Assembly (NCBI RefSeq): GCF_030848565.1
Contig: NZ_JAVDDV010000007.1
Coordinates: 124,001 to 188,000 of the forward strand
Source: Natronolimnohabitans sp. A-GB9
Lineage (GTDB): Archaea; Halobacteriota; Halobacteria; Halobacteriales; Natrialbaceae
Length of the DNA stretch: 64,000 nt
Direction: 5' to 3'
Below, piece by piece: positions 942 to 55,831 of the stretch. Both the position numbers and the translations under genes were made by a program. The stretch's first letter is position 1. Each line of letters opens with the position of its first letter. Under the pieces are notes generated by a model. That model was given only the letters and a program-made list of their open reading frames with translations, was not told the origin of the DNA and ran no database searches.

Positions 942-1020
942 ATACTGCCGGACAGAACGATTGTGAGAATTCGCCGCTTCCGTCCGGGAATTCTCTTCAG
1001 TGACTTCTGTCCGGCGGTAT
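942..1020. repeat. Palindromic intergenic element, type P5
   Basis: The 79 bp have 15-bp terminal inverted repeats: ATACTGCCGGACAGA at 942-956 and TCTGTCCGGCGGTAT at 1006-1020, with one mismatch. An inner pair TGAGAATTC / GGAATTCTC lies between them. The ends match other elements of this window (50985, 13096, 44772). The remaining non-coding DNA from 1021 to 1200 shows no gene. Confidence 0.75.
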
Positions 1021-11501: not shown

Positions 11502-11921
11502 ATGGTTCAAGAGATTCTGTGCCCGACGGACGGGAGCGAAAACAGCTACCGAGCGATAGCGCAAGCGACTCGGATCGCCGAGCCAGCGGATGCGACGGTT
11601 CACGTGCTGGCGGTGATTCCCGAGATGACCAGAGGGGCCCGACTCCGCGAAGAGTGGGAAGAACGCGTGACCGAGTCACTCGAGAGAGGAGAGGAACTGG
11701 TCGCGGAGGCAGACCTCGAGTTTGAGAGCGAGCGGCGACACGGACCCGTCGCCCAGGAAATCGTCGAGTACGCCGACGACCACGACGTCGACATGATCGT
11801 CATGGGAACACACGGACGGACCGGCCTCCACAAGTTCCTGGTCGGAAGCGTCACACAACGGACCATCGAACTCGCCTCGATTCCAGTGGTGACGGTGCCG
11901 CCCGACGAGGATACTGGCTGA
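11502..11921 (+). CDS. Universal stress protein, UspA family
   Basis: The product is a single Usp domain of 139 residues. It starts EILCPTDGSENSYRAI and ends with the ATP-binding pattern MGTHGRTGLHKFLVGSVTQ (G-x2-G-x9-G-S), then the IPVVTVPP strand. ATP-binding Usp proteins are cytoplasmic dimers linked to stress survival. The stop codon lies inside the terminal repeat of a palindromic element (11911-12019), so the last residues, DTG, are probably element-derived. Confidence 0.9.
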   Translation: MVQEILCPTDGSENSYRAIAQATRIAEPADATVHVLAVIPEMTRGARLREEWEERVTESLERGEELVAEADLEFESERRHGPVAQEIVEYADDHDVDMIVMGTHGRTGLHKFLVGSVTQRTIELASIPVVTVPPDEDTG

Positions 11922-12019
11922 CAACAGTCAGTGACCCGTCGGTCGCGATATCGCGACCGTCACCGTCGGCGACGGCCGCAGTCGTGTGACCGACCAGTGA
12001 ATAATGTTATCCGACAGTC
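11911..12019. repeat. Palindromic intergenic element, type P1
   Basis: This is a copy of the same roughly 108-bp element found inverted at 52016-52123, to which it aligns nearly throughout, and decayed at 44772. Its ends are ATACTGGCTGACAACAGTC and a CCGACAGT terminus. The core holds the perfect 18-bp palindrome GGTCGCGATATCGCGACC at 11941-11958. The left end overlaps the last UspA codons and supplies the stop. Confidence 0.8.
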
Positions 12020-12232: not shown

Positions 12233-13096
12233 ATGAATCGACGGAGATTCATTGCGATTGTCGGAACTGGTGCTGTGACCGGGCTCGCGGGCTGTGTCAG
12301 CGAGCTCGGGACGGACGATAACGACGAAAACGGCGACGATGACAACAGTGGAGAGAACGAGACCGACGGCGAGGAACACGGTGCAGTGTTGGCAGTCGAA
12401 TCATACATAGCGGCCGCCGCAGACGGTGATTTGGAGGCGATGTCCGACGCGATGCACACACACCACCCGTTCGATCCGCTCGAGATGTCCGAAGCCGCCA
12501 AAGACGACGAAAACACGGATTTCACGCTCGAGAGCGACCAGATCGACGACTACGAGGTCGAGCTCGTCGACGCGGAGTACGAGCCCGATGACGTCTACGA
12601 GATTCCCTACGTCGAGTTCTGGTTCCAGGACGTCGACCTCGAGACCGTCCTCGAGGGAGAGGAGGCCGCGCTGGTCGCCGTCGAGACCGAAATGGTCGAG
12701 GACGGCGAAACGATACTCGAGGAGGAGACGTTCGTCTCGCTGACCGACGACGGCGAGTGGACAGTCTTCGTCCAGTACGAGGCGCCACCGGAGATTCCCG
12801 ACGACGACCCCGTCGAAGACGAGGCCTACCGGATTGTCGAGAACCTCGAGTTCGACGAGGCGGCGGAACGAGTCGAGGTCCACTTCGAGCGGGACCTCGG
12901 AATCGACGTCGAGGAGGTCAACATCTACTCGACGAGTCTCGAACGAGAAAACACAGGCTATGGCTCCGACGACGTCGATGGACTCCCGATTACGATGCTG
13001 ACGTTGCCCTTCGATCCCGAGGGCGACGAGATCGTCGTCACCGCACTCGTCGACGACGAGGAGCTAGTAGTCCACCGCGAGGAATACGAACCGTAA
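12233..13096 (+). CDS. Tat-exported lipoprotein, function unknown
   Basis: The N-terminus RRRFIAIVGTGAVTGLAGC carries a twin-arginine motif and the lipobox LAGC (lipidated Cys at 22). The protein is thus exported folded and anchored on the outside of the membrane. A Asp/Glu/Asn-rich linker follows (about residues 25-48). Then come about 230 residues with an initial helix-rich part like a small NTF2-type or SnoaL-type domain (VESYIAAAADGDLEAMSDAM). The remainder is beta-rich (VEFWFQDVDLE, VYFVQYEAPPEIPDD-like). No catalytic residues are evident. The start is supported by TATA spacing for a leaderless mRNA. The TAA stop runs directly into a palindromic repeat end. Confidence 0.78.
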   Translation: MNRRRFIAIVGTGAVTGLAGCVSELGTDDNDENGDDDNSGENETDGEEHGAVLAVESYIAAAADGDLEAMSDAMHTHHPFDPLEMSEAAKDDENTDFTLESDQIDDYEVELVDAEYEPDDVYEIPYVEFWFQDVDLETVLEGEEAALVAVETEMVEDGETILEEETFVSLTDDGEWTVFVQYEAPPEIPDDDPVEDEAYRIVENLEFDEAAERVEVHFERDLGIDVEEVNIYSTSLERENTGYGSDDVDGLPITMLTLPFDPEGDEIVVTALVDDEELVVHREEYEP

Positions 13097-13120
13097 TACT
13101 GCCGGACAGCAGTCAGTGAG
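13096..13120. repeat. Solo terminal repeat of the P1/P5-type element at a stop codon
   Basis: The sequence ATACTGCCGGACAGCAGTC begins inside the lipoprotein gene's TAA. The rest of a P1 element is missing and a P6 element follows at 13137. Confidence 0.65.
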
Positions 13121-13136
13121 AAGTCGAGTTCGTCTC

Positions 13137-13216
13137 ATACGGACTGCTGTATCGATGTCCGCCAATCGCCCGAACGGGGTCCGCGATCGGCGGGACGTGA
13201 CGGCAGGAGACCGTAT
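13137..13216. repeat. Palindromic intergenic element, type P6
   Basis: The 80-bp element begins ATACGGACTGCTGTAT and ends in a GGAGACCGTAT arm. A central hairpin is formed by CCGCCAATCGC and GCGATCGGCGG (10 of 11 pairs). Its right half, read in reverse, matches 55676-55713 closely. The left end resembles the P4 element at 36032. Confidence 0.7.
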
Positions 13217-25374: not shown

Positions 25375-25440
25375 ATACTGATTACTGTACCGATGTCCCG
25401 ACGAAACCACGATCTCCCGACGAGCATACTAGTCCGGGTC
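25375..25440. repeat. Partial palindromic element, P4-like
   Basis: ATACTGATTACTGTACCGAT followed by GTCCCGACG matches the left end of the P4 element at 36032 over about 25 bp. The remainder is diverged. It lies between the EMC6-like operon and the stop of the large surface protein. Confidence 0.5.
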
Positions 25441-33296: not shown

Positions 33297-33378
33297 GTAC
33301 GGTTTACTGGAAGTCATCGCCGGCGCAACCGCGACCCGGGCGGCGGTTGCGCCGGGAAACCGTTACAGCGATCCGTAT
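33297..33378. repeat. Palindromic intergenic element, type P3
   Basis: The 82 bp align with 55750-55831. The ends are GTACGGTTTACTGG and CAGCGATCCGTAT, and the core is CCGGCGCAACCGC-gacccgggc-GGCGGTTGCGCCGG. The paired changes (GTAACC in one copy, GCAACC in the other, with the opposite arm changed to match) support selection for or copying of the hairpin. Confidence 0.8.
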
Positions 33379-34757: not shown

Positions 34758-36032
34758 GTGTCAGTCGGTCGGCCCGTGGGGGCGGGTCGACTCGGAATTT
34801 GGGGGAGGGTCGTCGGCTCGCCGAAGTCGACCGGGGGTGGTCGGGTCGTGATCGATAGCCCACGCCTCGAGTTGTTGCTCGCCAGACACGGCCGGACGAT
34901 CGCGATCGCACTGGTCGCCGTCGGCGTACTGGCGCTTCTCGCTTCGGGGTGGGCTGTCGCGAATCCCGCGACGACGACGACCCCACAGTACGCGGAGGAA
35001 CGGGTCTCGAGCGACGTCGACACGAGCACCGTCGTCGTCCAGGACGGGACGCTCTGGAACGAGGGTGATCGCCTCGAGAACAGTGAGGTCTACCTGCTAA
35101 ACGACTCGCCGGAGTTGACCGTCGAGCCGACGACTCGGCTGCAAAACGAGACCGACGGGACGCCAATCGAAGACGGTGACGTCCACCACGAACTGACGCT
35201 TCGGTTCGAAGCGACCCGAAACGACGCGACGTTCTGGAACGAGACACACACTTTGATCGACGAATCGACGTCCCTCGAGAACGGTGTCGCGAGTTCGGAG
35301 ACGACGGTCGACGTCGAGTCCTACCGGGACCGACAACAGCAACTCGAGGCCGAACTCTCCGGTGTCGGCTCGGTCGACCTCGTCCTCGAGTTCCGCACCG
35401 AGTACGACACCGGAACGACCGGGAACGTACAGACGGCGTCGACACCGTTTCGGGTGACCGACGACGCCTACTGGCTCGAGGAGTCGCTTTCCGTGTCGGA
35501 CGAGCACACACACAGAACGGGTCTCGAGGAGACGACCGAGTCGCGAAGCCTCGCGATGATCGCAGGCCTCTCGCTGGTGGGAACGCTGTCGCTGGCCGCC
35601 GGGGCGGTCGTCGCTCGCCGGGCGCCGATCGACGAGGAAGCCGCCCGCCGTGCCGTCCACGAACGGCGCTACGCGGAGTGGATCTCGCGTGGCTCGATCC
35701 CAATGTGGATCGGCGACTACCACGTCTCGTTGGACACCCTAGAGGACGTCGTCGACGTCGCGATCGACACGAACGAGCGCGTCGTCCACGACGAGCAGCG
35801 GGGGCTGTTCGCCGTCGTCACCGACGGCGTCGTCTACTACTACAGCGACCGCGGCCGCTGGGAGGAGACCGCCTGGCCGGAGATGAACCTCTCGGACCAG
35901 TCTACGACGGCCGCCGACGCAGACGGTGACGTGCCGATCTCGCCCGATGATCTGGATCTGGAGGGCAGCGCCGAGTTCGACGACCCCGAGGACGGATTCG
36001 ACGGGGATGAGGACGTCTGGAAGAAACTCTGA
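34758..36032 (+). CDS. DUF5305 family membrane protein
   Basis: The product has up to 424 residues, with a first transmembrane helix (TIAIALVAVGVLALLASGWAV). A beta-rich external domain of about 220 residues includes the ELTVEPTTRLQNETDG, VDVESYRDRQQQLEAELSG and VDLVLEFRTEYDTG blocks. A second helix follows (LAMIAGLSLVGTLSLAAGAVV), then a cytoplasmic part with DTLEDVVDVAIDTNERVVHD and GVVYYYSDRGRW. This is the pattern of DUF5305, which recurs near archaeal SipW-type signal peptidases. The start could instead be GTG 34848, giving 394 residues. The stop TGA leads directly into the P4 palindromic element. Confidence 0.8.
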   Translation: MSVGRPVGAGRLGIWGRVVGSPKSTGGGRVVIDSPRLELLLARHGRTIAIALVAVGVLALLASGWAVANPATTTTPQYAEERVSSDVDTSTVVVQDGTLWNEGDRLENSEVYLLNDSPELTVEPTTRLQNETDGTPIEDGDVHHELTLRFEATRNDATFWNETHTLIDESTSLENGVASSETTVDVESYRDRQQQLEAELSGVGSVDLVLEFRTEYDTGTTGNVQTASTPFRVTDDAYWLEESLSVSDEHTHRTGLEETTESRSLAMIAGLSLVGTLSLAAGAVVARRAPIDEEAARRAVHERRYAEWISRGSIPMWIGDYHVSLDTLEDVVDVAIDTNERVVHDEQRGLFAVVTDGVVYYYSDRGRWEETAWPEMNLSDQSTTAADADGDVPISPDDLDLEGSAEFDDPEDGFDGDEDVWKKL

Positions 36033-36147
36033 GACGGACTGCTGTACCGATGTCCCGACACGGTCACACGATGGGTCGCGGTCACGCCGGCACGAACTCA
36101 CACGACGAGTCGCGGTCGCGCCGGCACTGGCCGACAGCGGTCCGTCT
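36032..36147. repeat. Palindromic intergenic element, type P4, with internal tandem repeat
   Basis: The 116-bp element begins at the DUF5305 stop with AGACGGACTGCTGTACCGAT and ends GACAGCGGTCCGTCT. Inside are two 30-bp direct repeats at 36064-36093 and 36098-36127 that match at 27 positions. Confidence 0.75.
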
Positions 36148-44771: not shown

Positions 44772-44850
44772 ATACTGCCGGACAGCAGTCAGTAACACGT
44801 CGGTCACGAACTCGCGGCTGTCACCCGCTGGGACGGCCGCAGTAGCGCAG
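44772..44850. repeat. Decayed palindromic element, type P1
   Basis: The left half is clear: ATACTGCCGGACAGCAGTC, then CGTCGGTCACGAACTCGCGG, then a GACGGCCGCAGT segment shared with 52016 and 11911. The right terminal repeat is not recognisable. Confidence 0.65.
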
Positions 44851-44962
44851 GAATGCCAGGTTACTACTGGTGAGTTGTTACCAAACACCAATACAAAACC
44901 CGACAGAAAGACGCGTATCGGTCCGATCCACGACGAGCACCGCGATCGGGCCAGCACAACCT

Positions 44963-46915
44963 ATGAGCAAACAACGAGAATCCGTAACCGTCGATCATCC
45001 GCTCGATCCGCTCACTGCCGACGAAATCGAAACCGCAGCCGCTACCGTCGAGTCGGAAACTGATCTCGAGGACGAGATACAGTTCCACAACATCGTCCTC
45101 AACGAACCGCCGAAGGAGTTGGTCAAGGCGTTCGAACCCGGTGACGCGTTCGAACGGGAGGCGTCGGTCGTCGCCAGGGCCGACGAGGAGACCTACGAGG
45201 GGACCGTCTCACTATCCGACGAGACGCTCCTCGAGTGGGAGCACCTGCCCGACGCCCAGCCCGCGGTGATGCCCGAAGAGATCGAGGCGGCTCGAGAGGT
45301 CGTCAAGAACGACCCCGAGTGGCGGGAGGCGGCGGCGAAACGCGGCGTCGAGAACTTCGATCTCGTCATGGTCGACCCCTGGTCGGCCAGCGGATTCGAA
45401 CCGGAAGAACACGAGGGGAAACGGCTCTGTAGAGCGATCTCGTGGATTCGAACGAGCGAGAGCGACAACGGTCGGGCACGGCCGATCGAGGGGCTGTTCG
45501 CGTTCGTCGACCTAGACGAGATGGAGGTCGTCGACATCGAGGACAACGGCGTCCCGGATCCGGAGAATCCGCTGCCGCCGGAGGACGCCGACTACCGGGC
45601 CGACAGGGTCGAAACCCGCGACGACTTCGAACACCTAGACGTCGTCCAGCCCGACGGCCCAAGCTGGGAAGTCGACGGCCACAACGTCGAGTGGCTCGAC
45701 TGGGAGTTCCGTGTCGGCTGGACCGCCCGCGAGGGGCTCGTCTTCCACGATATCACGTTCGACGACGGCGACGAGTCCCGGTCGGTCCTCCATCGCGCGT
45801 CGGCCTGTGAGATGGCCGTTCCCTACGGCGACCCGGACCCCAACCACTCCTGGAAGAACGCCTTCGACATCGGCGAGTATCACGTCGGCCGGATGGCCAA
45901 CAGGCTCACCGAGGGGTGTGACTGTCTTGGCGTCATGAAGTACTTCGACGTCGAGATGAACACCATCGAGGGCGAGTCCGAGACCCTAGAGAGTGCGATC
46001 TGCATGCACGAGGAGGACGACGGCGTCCTCTGGAAACACACCGAAGAACGGAAACCACACACCGAGGTCCGACGGCGACGTCGGCTCGTCGTCTCCTTTA
46101 TCGCGACGGTGTACAACTACGACTACGGCTTCTACTGGTACTTCTACCCCGACGGGAGTATCGAAGCCGAGGTCCGACTGACCGGCATCGACTCGAACGG
46201 CGTCGTGCCGGCCGAGGAGACCGCCGAGGACACGTACGGCCAGTACGCCATCGTCGCGCCACAGGTGAAAGCCCCCATCCACCAGCACTTCTTCAACTTC
46301 CGGCTGGACTTCGACATCGACGACGGCCCGATGCGGGCCTACGAGGTCCACAACGAGCCGACGGGCAGCGAACGCAACCGAAAGAACGGGTTCCGAGCCA
46401 AGGAGACGTTACTCGAGCGCGAAAACGAGGCCCGCCAGGATATCGATCCCCTCCGCGGTCGATACTGGCGGATCGCCAACAGCGAGACCGAAAACTCCTA
46501 CGGACGCAGCTGTGGCTACAAGCTCGAGCCCCACACGAACGTCTCGGCACCGATGAAGCCGACCTCGAGTTACAAAGAGCGGTCGGGATTCATCCAGAAC
46601 AACTTCTGGGTGACGCCACACGACGACGACGAACGGTTCGCCGCCGGCGATTATCCGAACCTGAACGACGACACGACCGGCCTGCCCGAGTGGACGGAAC
46701 AGGACCGATCGCTCGTCGACGAGGATCTCGTCGTCTGGTACACGCAGGGGGTCAACCACGTCCCTCGAGCCGAGGACTGGCCCGTGTTGCCGGTCGAGAT
46801 CGCGAACTTCGAGTTGAAACCCGAAGGATTCCTCGACGGCAACCCCTCGATCGATCTGCCGCCCGAGCCGTGTCACACGGAGTACGACATTACGAGTCCC
46901 AGCGACGACGACTGA
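44963..46915 (+). CDS. Copper-containing primary-amine oxidase
   Basis: The enzyme oxidises primary amines to aldehydes, ammonia and H2O2 using copper and a topaquinone made from its own Tyr. The 650-residue protein has the catalytic base Asp302 in NAFDIGEYHVG and the TPQ Tyr386 in VYNYDYGF. The copper ligands are His440 and His442 in APIHQHFF and His599 in GVNHVPRAEDWP. N2/N3-like domains precede the catalytic domain. No signal peptide is seen, suggesting a cytoplasmic enzyme. ATG 44963 is chosen at the start of acidic, conserved-type sequence. The TGA stop is fused to a P3-type repeat. An HCxGMCGP membrane protein gene follows. Confidence 0.93.
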   Translation: MSKQRESVTVDHPLDPLTADEIETAAATVESETDLEDEIQFHNIVLNEPPKELVKAFEPGDAFEREASVVARADEETYEGTVSLSDETLLEWEHLPDAQPAVMPEEIEAAREVVKNDPEWREAAAKRGVENFDLVMVDPWSASGFEPEEHEGKRLCRAISWIRTSESDNGRARPIEGLFAFVDLDEMEVVDIEDNGVPDPENPLPPEDADYRADRVETRDDFEHLDVVQPDGPSWEVDGHNVEWLDWEFRVGWTAREGLVFHDITFDDGDESRSVLHRASACEMAVPYGDPDPNHSWKNAFDIGEYHVGRMANRLTEGCDCLGVMKYFDVEMNTIEGESETLESAICMHEEDDGVLWKHTEERKPHTEVRRRRRLVVSFIATVYNYDYGFYWYFYPDGSIEAEVRLTGIDSNGVVPAEETAEDTYGQYAIVAPQVKAPIHQHFFNFRLDFDIDDGPMRAYEVHNEPTGSERNRKNGFRAKETLLERENEARQDIDPLRGRYWRIANSETENSYGRSCGYKLEPHTNVSAPMKPTSSYKERSGFIQNNFWVTPHDDDERFAAGDYPNLNDDTTGLPEWTEQDRSLVDEDLVVWYTQGVNHVPRAEDWPVLPVEIANFELKPEGFLDGNPSIDLPPEPCHTEYDITSPSDDD

Positions 46916-46993
46916 TACGGGTTACTGTAAGTCAATTCCGGAACACCCACGACCCGTCTTTCGGGCTCCGGTAATTCGGTACGGCAGACCGGA
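46914..46993. repeat. Diverged palindromic element, type P3
   Basis: GATACGGGTTACTGTAAGTC starts within the amine oxidase stop and matches the start of the 55750 copy almost exactly. The centre keeps CACGACCCG and a ...CGGTAATTCGGTACGGCAGA right arm. The rest is diverged. No gene is seen from 46994 to 47195. Confidence 0.65.
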
Positions 46994-48063: not shown

Positions 48064-48176
48064 CATACTACCGGACAACAGTCAATACACACCCGGTCGC
48101 GTCTCGACGCCTGTCGCGGAACACGACAGCGTCTCGAGTGCGATCGGTGTGTGCATCGTTTTGTCCGGAAGTATCA
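48064..48176. repeat. Palindromic intergenic element, type P2 (long hairpin)
   Basis: CACACCCGGTCGCGTCTCGA, then CGCCTGTCG, pairs across a CGGAACA loop with CGACAGCGTCTCGAGTGCGA, then TCGGTGTGTG. The ends are CATACTACCGGACAACAGTC and TTTTGTCCGGAAGTATCA. The right end coincides with the stop codon of the minus-strand gene 48174-48530. The sister copy is at 12007-12110. Confidence 0.8.
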
Positions 48177-48530
48177 GGCGCCGGGGACGCCGGCGGCTTC
48201 GAAGCCGGTGACCCCGACGGCGGCCAGGGCGTAGAGTACGATCAGGACCGTCACCCAGGCGACGAGCCCGATCATCGCGGCGGCGGTCCAGTCGCCGGGA
48301 TACCGGAAGTTGATGACCGCGATGTACGCCAGCAAGGCCAGCAACGGTCCAAGCAGCGGAATCCAGCCCACGAAGAAGCCGACGGCGGCCCAGACGATCG
48401 CCCCGATTAGCGCAGTGACGATCGCGTGATCGTAATCGCCGGCACCGACGATGATGCGAGCACCGACGTAGATGCCCAGTGCACCGATCAGTAGGCTCAC
48501 GAAGAACACGACGGCTGATGCAAGGACCAT
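48174..48530 (-). CDS. Small multi-pass membrane protein
   Basis: The 118-residue protein has four hydrophobic helices (SAVVFFVSLLIGALGIYVGA, AIVTALIGAIVWAAVGFFVG, LLALLAYIAVIN, WVTVLIVLYALAAVGVTG). DYDHAIVTA and NFRYPGDW loops lie between them. No known motif is seen. The stop TGA is the first base triplet of the P2 palindromic element read in this orientation, so the 3' end is element-linked. ATG 48530 is chosen over the extension to 48590. Confidence 0.65.
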   Translation of the reverse strand: MVLASAVVFFVSLLIGALGIYVGARIIVGAGDYDHAIVTALIGAIVWAAVGFFVGWIPLLGPLLALLAYIAVINFRYPGDWTAAAMIGLVAWVTVLIVLYALAAVGVTGFEAAGVPGA

Positions 48531-50241: not shown

Positions 50242-50985
50242 ATGGCAACGACGTCACTCGAGTCGAAGACGGCGATCGTGACGGGTGCGAGTTCGGGCAT
50301 CGGCGCAGCGACCTGCCGTGAGTTCGCAGCTGAAGGTGCAGACGTCGTCCTCGCGGCCCGAAGCGAGGACCGGCTGACGGAGCTGGCCGACGAACTCGAG
50401 ACCGACCACGGCGTCGAGACGCTGGTCGTCCCGACGAACGTCCGCGAGGAGGACGACGTCGACGCGTTGATCGAAGCAACGGTCGAGACCTTCGGCGGTA
50501 TCGACGTACTGGTGAACAACGCCGGCCTCTCGCGGGGCAGCGAGATCGAGACGATGTCGACCGACGAGTACGAGACGATGCAAGAGACCAACGTCGACGG
50601 CCTCTTCTATGCGACACGAGCGGCGATCCCCCACGTCCGTGAGACCGACGGTCACCTGATCTTCGTCGGCAGTTTCGCCGGCCAGTATCCGCGGTCGTTC
50701 AACCCCATTTACGCGGCGACGAAGTGGTGGACCCGCGGCTTCGCAAAGAGCGTCGCGGCACAGGTCGGCGACGACGGCGTCGGCGTCACGGTCGTCAATC
50801 CCGCCGAGGTGCGCACGGAGTTCGAGGCGACCGACGGGAAAACCTTCGAAGAGCACTTCGAGGAGGGCAAAGCCAGCGAACCCAACGAGGTCGCCGAGGC
50901 CATCGCCTTCGCCGCGAGCCAGGCACACTCGAGCATCAGCGAGATCGACATCAATCGCCGCGACAAGTTCGCCGATCGGTTCTGA
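50242..50985 (+). CDS. Short-chain dehydrogenase/reductase (SDR)
   Basis: This 247-residue classical SDR has the cofactor motif TGASSGIG at 14-21 and NNAG in VLVNNAGLSRG. The catalytic Ser lies in FVGSFAGQYP and the Y-x-x-x-K motif is IYAATKW (about 158-162). VVNPAEVRTEF follows. AARSEDR after strand 2 suggests NADP preference. The substrate is unknown. The stop TGA runs straight into ATACTGCCGGACAGCAGTC. Confidence 0.9.
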   Translation: MATTSLESKTAIVTGASSGIGAATCREFAAEGADVVLAARSEDRLTELADELETDHGVETLVVPTNVREEDDVDALIEATVETFGGIDVLVNNAGLSRGSEIETMSTDEYETMQETNVDGLFYATRAAIPHVRETDGHLIFVGSFAGQYPRSFNPIYAATKWWTRGFAKSVAAQVGDDGVGVTVVNPAEVRTEFEATDGKTFEEHFEEGKASEPNEVAEAIAFAASQAHSSISEIDINRRDKFADRF

Positions 50986-51008
50986 TACTGCCGGACAGCA
51001 GTCAGTAT
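50985..51008. repeat. Solo terminal repeat of P1/P5-type element at a stop codon
   Basis: ATACTGCCGGACAGCAGTC followed by AGTAT starts in the last base of the SDR stop. No matching right arm is found before the next gene. Confidence 0.6.
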
Positions 51009-51138: not shown

Positions 51139-51783
51139 ATGCGTCTCTCGATACCTGGCCTCCCTGGCGTCTACTACGACACCGATTCAGGGACGACGGC
51201 CATCGGCGTTGCCACGACGGCCATCGGTCGCAAAGCGCCCAAACCGAAGGGGTACGCCATCCAGCTGTTGCCCTATCTCTGGTCGTTCGACGTCGACCTC
51301 CACGAGGTCCCAAACGACCATCCGATTCAGTATCTGCATCCGGAGGGCGCACAGAGCCTGGGTGAGCTCTCACCCGAACAAAACGTACGCCGGGCCGGAA
51401 CCGAACTCGAGTCGGTTCTCCGGTTCGTCTGGTCGATCAACCAGGAGGTCGAGTCGACGACGAATCAGTTGCTCGGCCGCAGTCAGAGCGACGACGGCGT
51501 CGTTATCGAGATCGAAGCGGGAACGGTCAGCGTCGACGGCGAGCAACTCGCGACCGACGAGTTCGACTTCGAGGAGCCGTCTCCGGATCCGGCCGAGCGG
51601 GCCGACACCGAGATCGAAATCGACGACGGGACCGACGTCATCGACGAGACGGAATCCGACAGTGAAGTCGACGCCGACGACGTGTTCGGCGCTACCGAGG
51701 AGACACCAGTCGACGACGAGTTCGATTCCGACGAGGAGTTCGGCGTCGACGACACGGACGATATCGACCCGGACGAGACCTAA
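51139..51783 (+). CDS. Haloarchaeal acidic protein, unknown function
   Basis: The 214 residues split in two. Residues 1-125 form an ordered domain (MRLSIPGLPGVYYD, then TTAIGVATTAIGRKAPKPKG, YAIQLLPYLWSFDVDLHEVP, RAGTELESVLRFVWSINQEV). The rest is a disordered Asp/Glu tail with repeated DD and VDDEFDSDEEFG-type runs. No known motif or membrane segment is seen. The start follows the domain boundary, and the longer frame to 51076 reads through repeat-derived sequence. Confidence 0.65.
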   Translation: MRLSIPGLPGVYYDTDSGTTAIGVATTAIGRKAPKPKGYAIQLLPYLWSFDVDLHEVPNDHPIQYLHPEGAQSLGELSPEQNVRRAGTELESVLRFVWSINQEVESTTNQLLGRSQSDDGVVIEIEAGTVSVDGEQLATDEFDFEEPSPDPAERADTEIEIDDGTDVIDETESDSEVDADDVFGATEETPVDDEFDSDEEFGVDDTDDIDPDET

Positions 51784-52015: not shown

Positions 52016-52123
52016 ATACTGTCGGACAGCACGATTCACCGGGCGGTCACACGACTGCGGCCGTCGCCGACAGTGACAGCCGCGAATTCGCGACCGACGG
52101 CGCACTGACTGCTGTCCGGCAGT
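52016..52123. repeat. Palindromic intergenic element, type P1 (best copy)
   Basis: The 108-bp element has terminal inverted repeats ATACTGTCGGACAGCA and TGCTGTCCGGCAGT. The core has GCGAATTCGC and GACTGCGGCCGTCGCC. In reverse complement it aligns over its full length with 11911-12019. Confidence 0.82.
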
Positions 52124-52169
52124 TTCACCACTGATCTCGGTCGTCGAAAAGGGAGTTCGCAGACGTGCG

Positions 52170-52439
52170 TTAGGCGCCGGCGGACTCGAGGGCGTCTTCG
52201 AGGTCGTCGCGCTGGGTAACACCGACGAAGCGCTCGACGATTCCGTCCTCGTTCTCGACAACGAGCGTCGGAAGCGAGCGTACCTGGTACTCGTTGGCGA
52301 CGTCCTGTTGTTCGTCAACGTTGATCTTCTCGACCTCGAATCGGCCCTCCCAGTCCTCCTCGAGTTCCTCGAGGATCGGGTCCTGGGTCTTACAGGGGCC
52401 ACACCAGTCCGCGTAGAAATCCTTCAGTGTGACAGTCAT
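52170..52439 (-). CDS. Thioredoxin-like protein
   Basis: The 89-residue minimal thioredoxin fold begins at TVTLKDFYADWCGPCKTQDP with redox pair C13-G-P-C16. INVDEQQDVANEYQVRSLPT with the cis-Pro and a C-terminal helix follow. The first beta-alpha unit of classical thioredoxin is missing, as is usual for short archaeal forms. It reduces disulfides in the cytoplasm. ATG 52439 is chosen on domain start. Confidence 0.88.
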   Translation of the reverse strand: MTVTLKDFYADWCGPCKTQDPILEELEEDWEGRFEVEKINVDEQQDVANEYQVRSLPTLVVENEDGIVERFVGVTQRDDLEDALESAGA

Positions 52440-55749: not shown

Positions 55750-55831
55750 ATACGGGTTACTGTACGTCATTGCCGGCGTAACCGCGACCCGGGCGGCGGT
55801 TACGCCGGGAAATCGGTACAGCAATCCGTAT
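55750..55831. repeat. Palindromic intergenic element, type P3 (best copy)
   Basis: The 82-bp element has ends ATACGGGTTACTGTAC and GTACAGCAATCCGTAT and core CCGGCGTAACCGC / GCGGTTACGCCGG around GACCCGGGC. A short in-frame run ending ALEAIRDAQ then TGA precedes it, possibly the remnant of a lost gene. Confidence 0.8.

Follow-up and report, generated by a model that had tools for sequence, protein, structure and literature searches.

Between the convergent genes at 51139-51783 (+) and 52170-52439 (-) of the window (the whole analysed stretch of 64 kb from Natronolimnohabitans sp. A-GB9, hereafter the host) lies a full-length copy of a short palindromic element, termed F1 (Table 1). The earlier note had described a 108-bp palindrome present in three copies, the first of them inverted. 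All three exist, about one base off the positions then given, and copy 1 is in reverse orientation (corrected span 52017-52124). The reported alignment through ends and core holds for copies 1 and 2 (83 % ungapped identity over 114 bp), but the right half of copy 3 is decayed; copies 1 and 3 share 84 % ungapped identity over 70 bp, and copy 3 was extended to 44879 by a covariance model (E 5e-7). Likewise, the segment GACGGCCGCAGTCGTGTGAC is present in copies 1 and 2, with copy 3 having its first part only. The perfect palindrome noted in one copy is located in copy 2 and measures 20 bp (11940-11959, the longest found) instead of 18 bp; that in copy 1 measures 12 bp.

Overlooked at that time were two subfamilies sharing the ends of F1 (48066-48173 and 943-1019) as well as the single ends at 13097 and 50986. 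In case of the element at 48066-48173, the right target-site duplication doubles as the TGA stop of gene 48174-48530 (minus strand). The 15-base F1 end, allowing up to 3 mismatches, is found 21 times in the window versus a mean of 2.9 in shuffles, some of these sites being counted on both strands since the end itself is palindromic. Elements of a second family (F2) are also present in the window, and half of an F2-like element adjoins a large gene at 25375-25408.

Table 1. F1 and F2 elements in the 64-kb window, with target-site duplications (TSD) or flanking triplets given as left/right
Feature	Positions	Strand	TSD, flanks and context
F1 copy 1, full length, 108 bp	52017-52124	-	TSD TCA/TCA
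F1 copy 2, full length, 108 bp	11912-12019	+	left flank GGA, right flank TCA; TSD decayed
F1 copy 3	44773-44879	+	left half intact, right half decayed; left flank TAA
F1 subfamily, diverged core, 108 bp	48066-48173	+	TSD TCA/TCA
F1 short subfamily, 77 bp	943-1019	+	TSD TGA/TGA
Single F1 end	13097-13130 (feature end approximate)	+	directly 3' of TAA stop of gene 12275-13096
Single F1 end or very short derivative	50986-51007	+	directly 3' of TGA stop of gene 50242-50985; TGA then follows
F2 element, 78 bp	13138-13215	+	ends TACGG..CCGTA; flanks TCA/TCG
F2 element, 80 bp	33298-33377	+	flanks TCG/TCA
F2-type element, 114 bp	36033-36146	+	TSD TGA/TGA; directly 3' of stop of gene 34848-36032
F2 element, 78 bp	46916-46993	+	TSD TGA/TGA; directly 3' of TGA stop of gene 44963-46915
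F2 element, 80 bp	55751-55830	+	flanks TGA/TGA

F1 has a length of 107-108 bp, with derivatives of 75-80 bp and shorter, and is too short for a transposase; its interpretation as a coding element was considered and dropped. Both termini carry TACTGYCGGACAGCA as inverted ends (TACTG..CAGTA). In the host genome (4.30 Mb, 72 contigs), this 15-base end occurs 448 times with at most one mismatch, versus 0 times for the reversed control. F1 is multicopy and dispersed. Out of 103 rows, 5 with diverged cores were set aside, and 57 of the remaining 98 full-length F1 rows served to build a covariance model, which matches at least 145 distinct places in the host genome at E 0.01. This lower bound was obtained from 149 matches minus 4 opposite-strand repeats, with 150 candidates scored. 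The best of these matches reach E 3e-28.

Exact F1 ends were detected in 29 of 125 genomes of the Natrialbaceae. The spread of F1 across the family is patchy: at E 1e-6, the model matches 72 of the 125 genomes, representing 20 of 29 genera. An order-wide sample of 293 genomes contains 38 that match the model, 5 of them in other families; copy numbers per genome are lower bounds in both surveys, as at most 31 candidates per genome were scored in the family and at most 13 in the order-wide sample. A 23-base F1 pattern matches 24 stretches in the genome contig collection (Natronorubrum, Natrinema, Natronococcus, Natronolimnohabitans, Natrarchaeobius, Salinadaptatus and Natrialba). The plasmid collection yielded two records (Natrononativus and Natrialba), the phage collection no match. 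In viral contigs, the F1 pattern is found in 6 stretches, all of them without the element, and the F2 pattern matches 50 stretches (at the pattern level only). Loci beyond the window were selected for carrying F1 ends, so that conservation of one end and copy density are biased there. At L096 ~13600 and L141 ~3130 (G059), F1 copies are interrupted by N and have a repeated core, probably because the hairpin was misassembled.

Genomes of this kind often contain GC-rich repeats, and many weak repeat families emerged from the window comparison, as would be expected if the likeness of the F1 copies were due to chance or to palindromes arising convergently at high GC content. The 448 ends against none in the control, the number and E-values of the model matches and their occurrence in two thirds of the genera surveyed (20/29) render such an origin practically negligible.

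In the host, 47 of 66 F1 elements are bordered by a TNA triplet at either end, with an identical middle base in 45 of these 47 (18.0 expected). Other genomes yielded nearly the same picture (68 elements, 47 with TNA on both sides, same middle base in 45; 18.6 expected). F1 thus has a target duplication of fixed length, i.e., the 3 bp TNA, resembling that of some IS5 subgroups and of PIF/Harbinger elements. F2 elements are palindromic, mostly 79-80 bp long, have the ends TACGG(A/T)(C/T)TGCTGTA, and occur in the stretches read roughly as often as F1. Among the matches listed, 87 F2 elements were detected, some of them loosely and with an odd length. TNA borders both ends of 65 elements, and the middle base is shared in 61 of these; judging from these flanks, F2 uses the same kind of TNA target as F1.

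This duplication bears on an assignment of F1 to the SMRs as in Haloquadratum walsbyi, moved by a non-DDE mechanism. Size (~110 bp), prominent inverted ends and the absence of a known related transposon, as given for SMRs in parts of PMC3119063, would agree with F1, for which no parent was found here. However, SMRs make no target duplication and SMR-A resides mostly in IS605/PATE sequences according to the same parts of that account, whereas F1 duplicates TNA and lands at gene ends, making this assignment quite improbable.

In Salinadaptatus halalkaliphilus (G118), at least 13 F1 copies are identical or a few bases apart while their flanks differ; F1 appears to have been active recently in this organism. 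One of its loci (L204, C71:53500-64500) contains a pair of identical or nearly identical F1 copies that point in opposite directions, 7 kb apart, with swapped flanks (TTA/TCA and TCA/TTA), which would fit a single inversion by recombination between the copies. Furthermore, the two families nest into each other: L254 and L255 each carry an F2 element inserted into F1, and L031 shows the converse. Removal of the insert together with one TNA leaves an uninterrupted host element at the nested loci; at L255, the F1 sequence restored by removing F2 and one duplication is 100 % identical over 83 bp to an intact copy. In Natronolimnohabitans innermongolicus JCM 12255 (Natrialbaceae), the only congener searched, the orthologous intergenic region lacks copy 1 of the window; this region is much shorter and its flanks are unalignable, such that the comparison is one of presence and absence rather than of a base-exact empty site. 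At the level of sequence, mobility is apparent from the nested insertions, the near-identical copies in S. halalkaliphilus and the inversion between copies.

Insertions are mainly intergenic. In 464 kb of host sequence, only 1 of 40 F1 and none of 32 F2 elements are located inside called genes, versus 85 % of random sites; gene calls were obtained with a purpose-written hexamer script and are uncurated. Convergent gene pairs hold 10 of the 40 F1 elements, about twice their share of intergenic sites. The same 464 kb contain 26 listed single F1 ends (including the two ends of full copy 1), of which 20 are preceded by TNA. Such unpartnered ends with TNA before them suggest one-sided loss of the hairpin.

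Many insertions coincide with stop codons. Of 222 F1/F2 elements shorter than 150 bp, 149 remained after filtering for perfect duplications, and in 77 of these 149 the duplicated TNA coincides exactly with the stop of an open frame that spans 80 codons or more (host, 39/68; S. halalkaliphilus, 9/22; others, 29/59). Applied to all TNA triplets, the same open-frame test yielded 207 of 1597 for the window and 350 of 3270 for the S. halalkaliphilus loci. With called genes instead of open frames, 50 of 121 insertions are at stops, versus a share of stops of about 9 % among non-genic TNA sites (binomial p at or below about 2e-11 in each set). Per available site, 50 of 638 stops are hit, compared to 28 of 944 TNA sites located 1-60 bp downstream (Fisher p 1e-5). 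A frame-shift control was left unused, being empty by construction (no shifted stop fits into a TNA beside TAC). Selection against insertions elsewhere can account for some of the excess at stops.

Pre-insertion sites of F1 and F2 have a common palindromic lean, roughly CGAC-TNA-GTCG, and often coincide with stop codons. The lean persists off stops, where C is enriched just before TNA (0.45 for F1 and 0.54 for F2 versus a background of 0.21) and A is depleted at this position; F2 additionally prefers G three bases before. Compared to 265 unoccupied stops, occupied stops are more often preceded by C (0.66 vs 0.40) and followed by G (0.45 vs 0.19). In the host, the frequencies of G, A and C at the three pre-stop bases are 0.52, 0.44 and 0.40 for unoccupied and 0.58, 0.52 and 0.66 for occupied stops. 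Haloarchaeal proteins are acidic, and the target appears to resemble GAC-TGA, a natural gene end in such proteomes. Since the target leans to GAC-TNA-GTC, gene ends reading GAC-TGA would represent ready-made targets.

The proximity to gene ends, the 77 elements at stop codons and the doubled share in convergent pairs would also be expected if F1 were a domesticated hairpin of the REP kind, kept at gene 3' ends for mRNA stabilisation or transcription end, with mobility being historical only. The F1 consensus forms indeed one long interrupted hairpin, an imperfect palindrome. Pairing in its outer helix reaches 92.9 % in 57 rows, all of them picked for having an exact terminus at one side; across the full palindrome, 92.4 % of cells are paired versus 91.3 % in shuffles. 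Changes on both sides affect 9 of 34 pairs (33 cells vs 12.8 in shuffles), mostly concentrated at one outer and one inner pair. Conservation of the fold has modest support, given the relatedness of the rows and the one-sided selection of the outer end. Rfam yielded no match in the whole window, and an assignment to an RNA family was dropped. Besides this modest covariation, the still fresh duplications, the near-identical copies at different loci of S. halalkaliphilus, the mutual nesting of F1 and F2 and the missing copy 1 in the congener argue against purely historical mobility, so that a REP-kind structural element is considered unlikely.

The partial search for an autonomous parent with F1 ends covered loci of the transposase families PF01609, PF13359 and PF13586 as well as the stretches read, and revealed none. 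No TNA-flanked TAC..GTA ends were found at PF01609 loci of the host (12), S. halalkaliphilus (9) or a further genome, G057 (21 of 49 matches), and the F1 end itself was not found at the 12 host loci; a few weak end pairs in L058-L060 match at most 9 of 16 end bases. The nine genomes searched contain no match to PF13359, a Harbinger-type transposase domain (DDE_Tnp_4), at E 0.1, and nothing above the cut-off for PF13586. Likewise, F1/F2 end pairs 130-3500 bp apart with equal duplications included no long element with F1 ends. Four long end pairs were rejected as parents, as they enclose ordinary genes between separate F2 copies; their translations, judged by eye, contained no recognisable transposase.

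Considering all evidence, F1 is very probably a non-autonomous MITE-like DNA transposon that targets TNA, often at stop codons, and would depend on a transposase acting in trans. The MITE-like reading had already been proposed in the earlier note, which named further genomic copies, target-site duplications and a parent transposon with the same ends as points to look for. It is supported by the inverted ends, the 3-bp TNA duplication, the at least 145 distinct places matching the model and the signs of mobility; the parent is the one point for which the partial search gave nothing. From its sequence features, F1 is best read as a new haloarchaeal MITE-like family.

A cut-and-paste DDE transposase provided in trans may recognise the TAC(T/G)G ends of F1 and F2 and insert the element at a palindromic site like GAC-TNA-GTC. 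The stop codon itself would often be the target because many gene ends here read GAC-TGA. As the duplication would restore the stop codon, the gene would remain unharmed and copies could accumulate at gene 3' ends. Once settled, copies may serve as substrates for homologous recombination and may decay to single ends. Beyond F1, one may speculate on a family-wide superfamily comprising F1 and F2, with different ends but one target motif, mobilised by a single, possibly stand-alone transposase and using the stop codon as a safe harbour; we regard this broader view as possible rather than probable. If true, GAC-TNA-GTC would match the way in which acidic haloarchaeal proteins typically end (an Asp codon followed by TGA), and each insertion would duplicate the stop and place a hairpin directly after the gene.

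F1 would add a very abundant MITE family to the haloarchaea, and neither a report of it nor its end strings were found in the open-access literature, to which the search was confined (subscription papers being outside its scope). It may represent a concrete case of a transposon reaching hundreds of copies in a gene-dense genome via stop-codon landing sites. Its copies could readily take part in genome rearrangement and serve as natural experiments on 3'-UTRs. Since F1 appears recently active in S. halalkaliphilus, the missing transposase is a well-posed question.

Among known systems, REPs and REPINs with their RAYT resemble F1 in being palindromic, intergenic and present in more than 100 copies. 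Parts of PMC3733652 describe REPs as palindromes of 20-40 bp with GTAG/CGTC tags, compared to the 108 bp, long inverted ends (TACTG..CAGTA) and target duplication of F1, which was therefore not assigned to this class. PATEs and other IS605-type derivatives of H. walsbyi are, like F1, transposase-free haloarchaeal mobile repeats with palindromes; they were rejected since PATEs have neither inverted ends nor a target duplication, as far as described in PMC3119063, and F1 has both. Tourist-type (PIF/Harbinger) and IS5-group MITEs share with F1 the short, non-coding format, inverted ends, TNA duplication, high copy number and location near genes. F1 differs from them in that no parent with the same ends was found and in its GACTNAGTC-leaning target, often at stop codons. 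For PIF/Harbinger elements, 3-bp duplications are described in the relevant part of PMC2213677. Archaeal MITEs have been named in Sulfolobus, Halobacterium, Haloquadratum and Desulfurococcus, according to sections of a 2024 review (PMC10969869). In H. walsbyi, MITEs with transposon-related ends, SMRs (SMR-A of ~110 bp, no target duplication) and PATEs are told apart in the corresponding sections of PMC3119063. SMR-A (HqIRS42/43/55), as presented there, shares with F1 the haloarchaeal host, the size, the prominent inverted ends and a mobiliser that is not known; its targets are IS605-type/PATE palindromes, which are not duplicated, in contrast to the TNA duplicated by F1. F1 is SMR-like in size and MITE-like in its target duplication.
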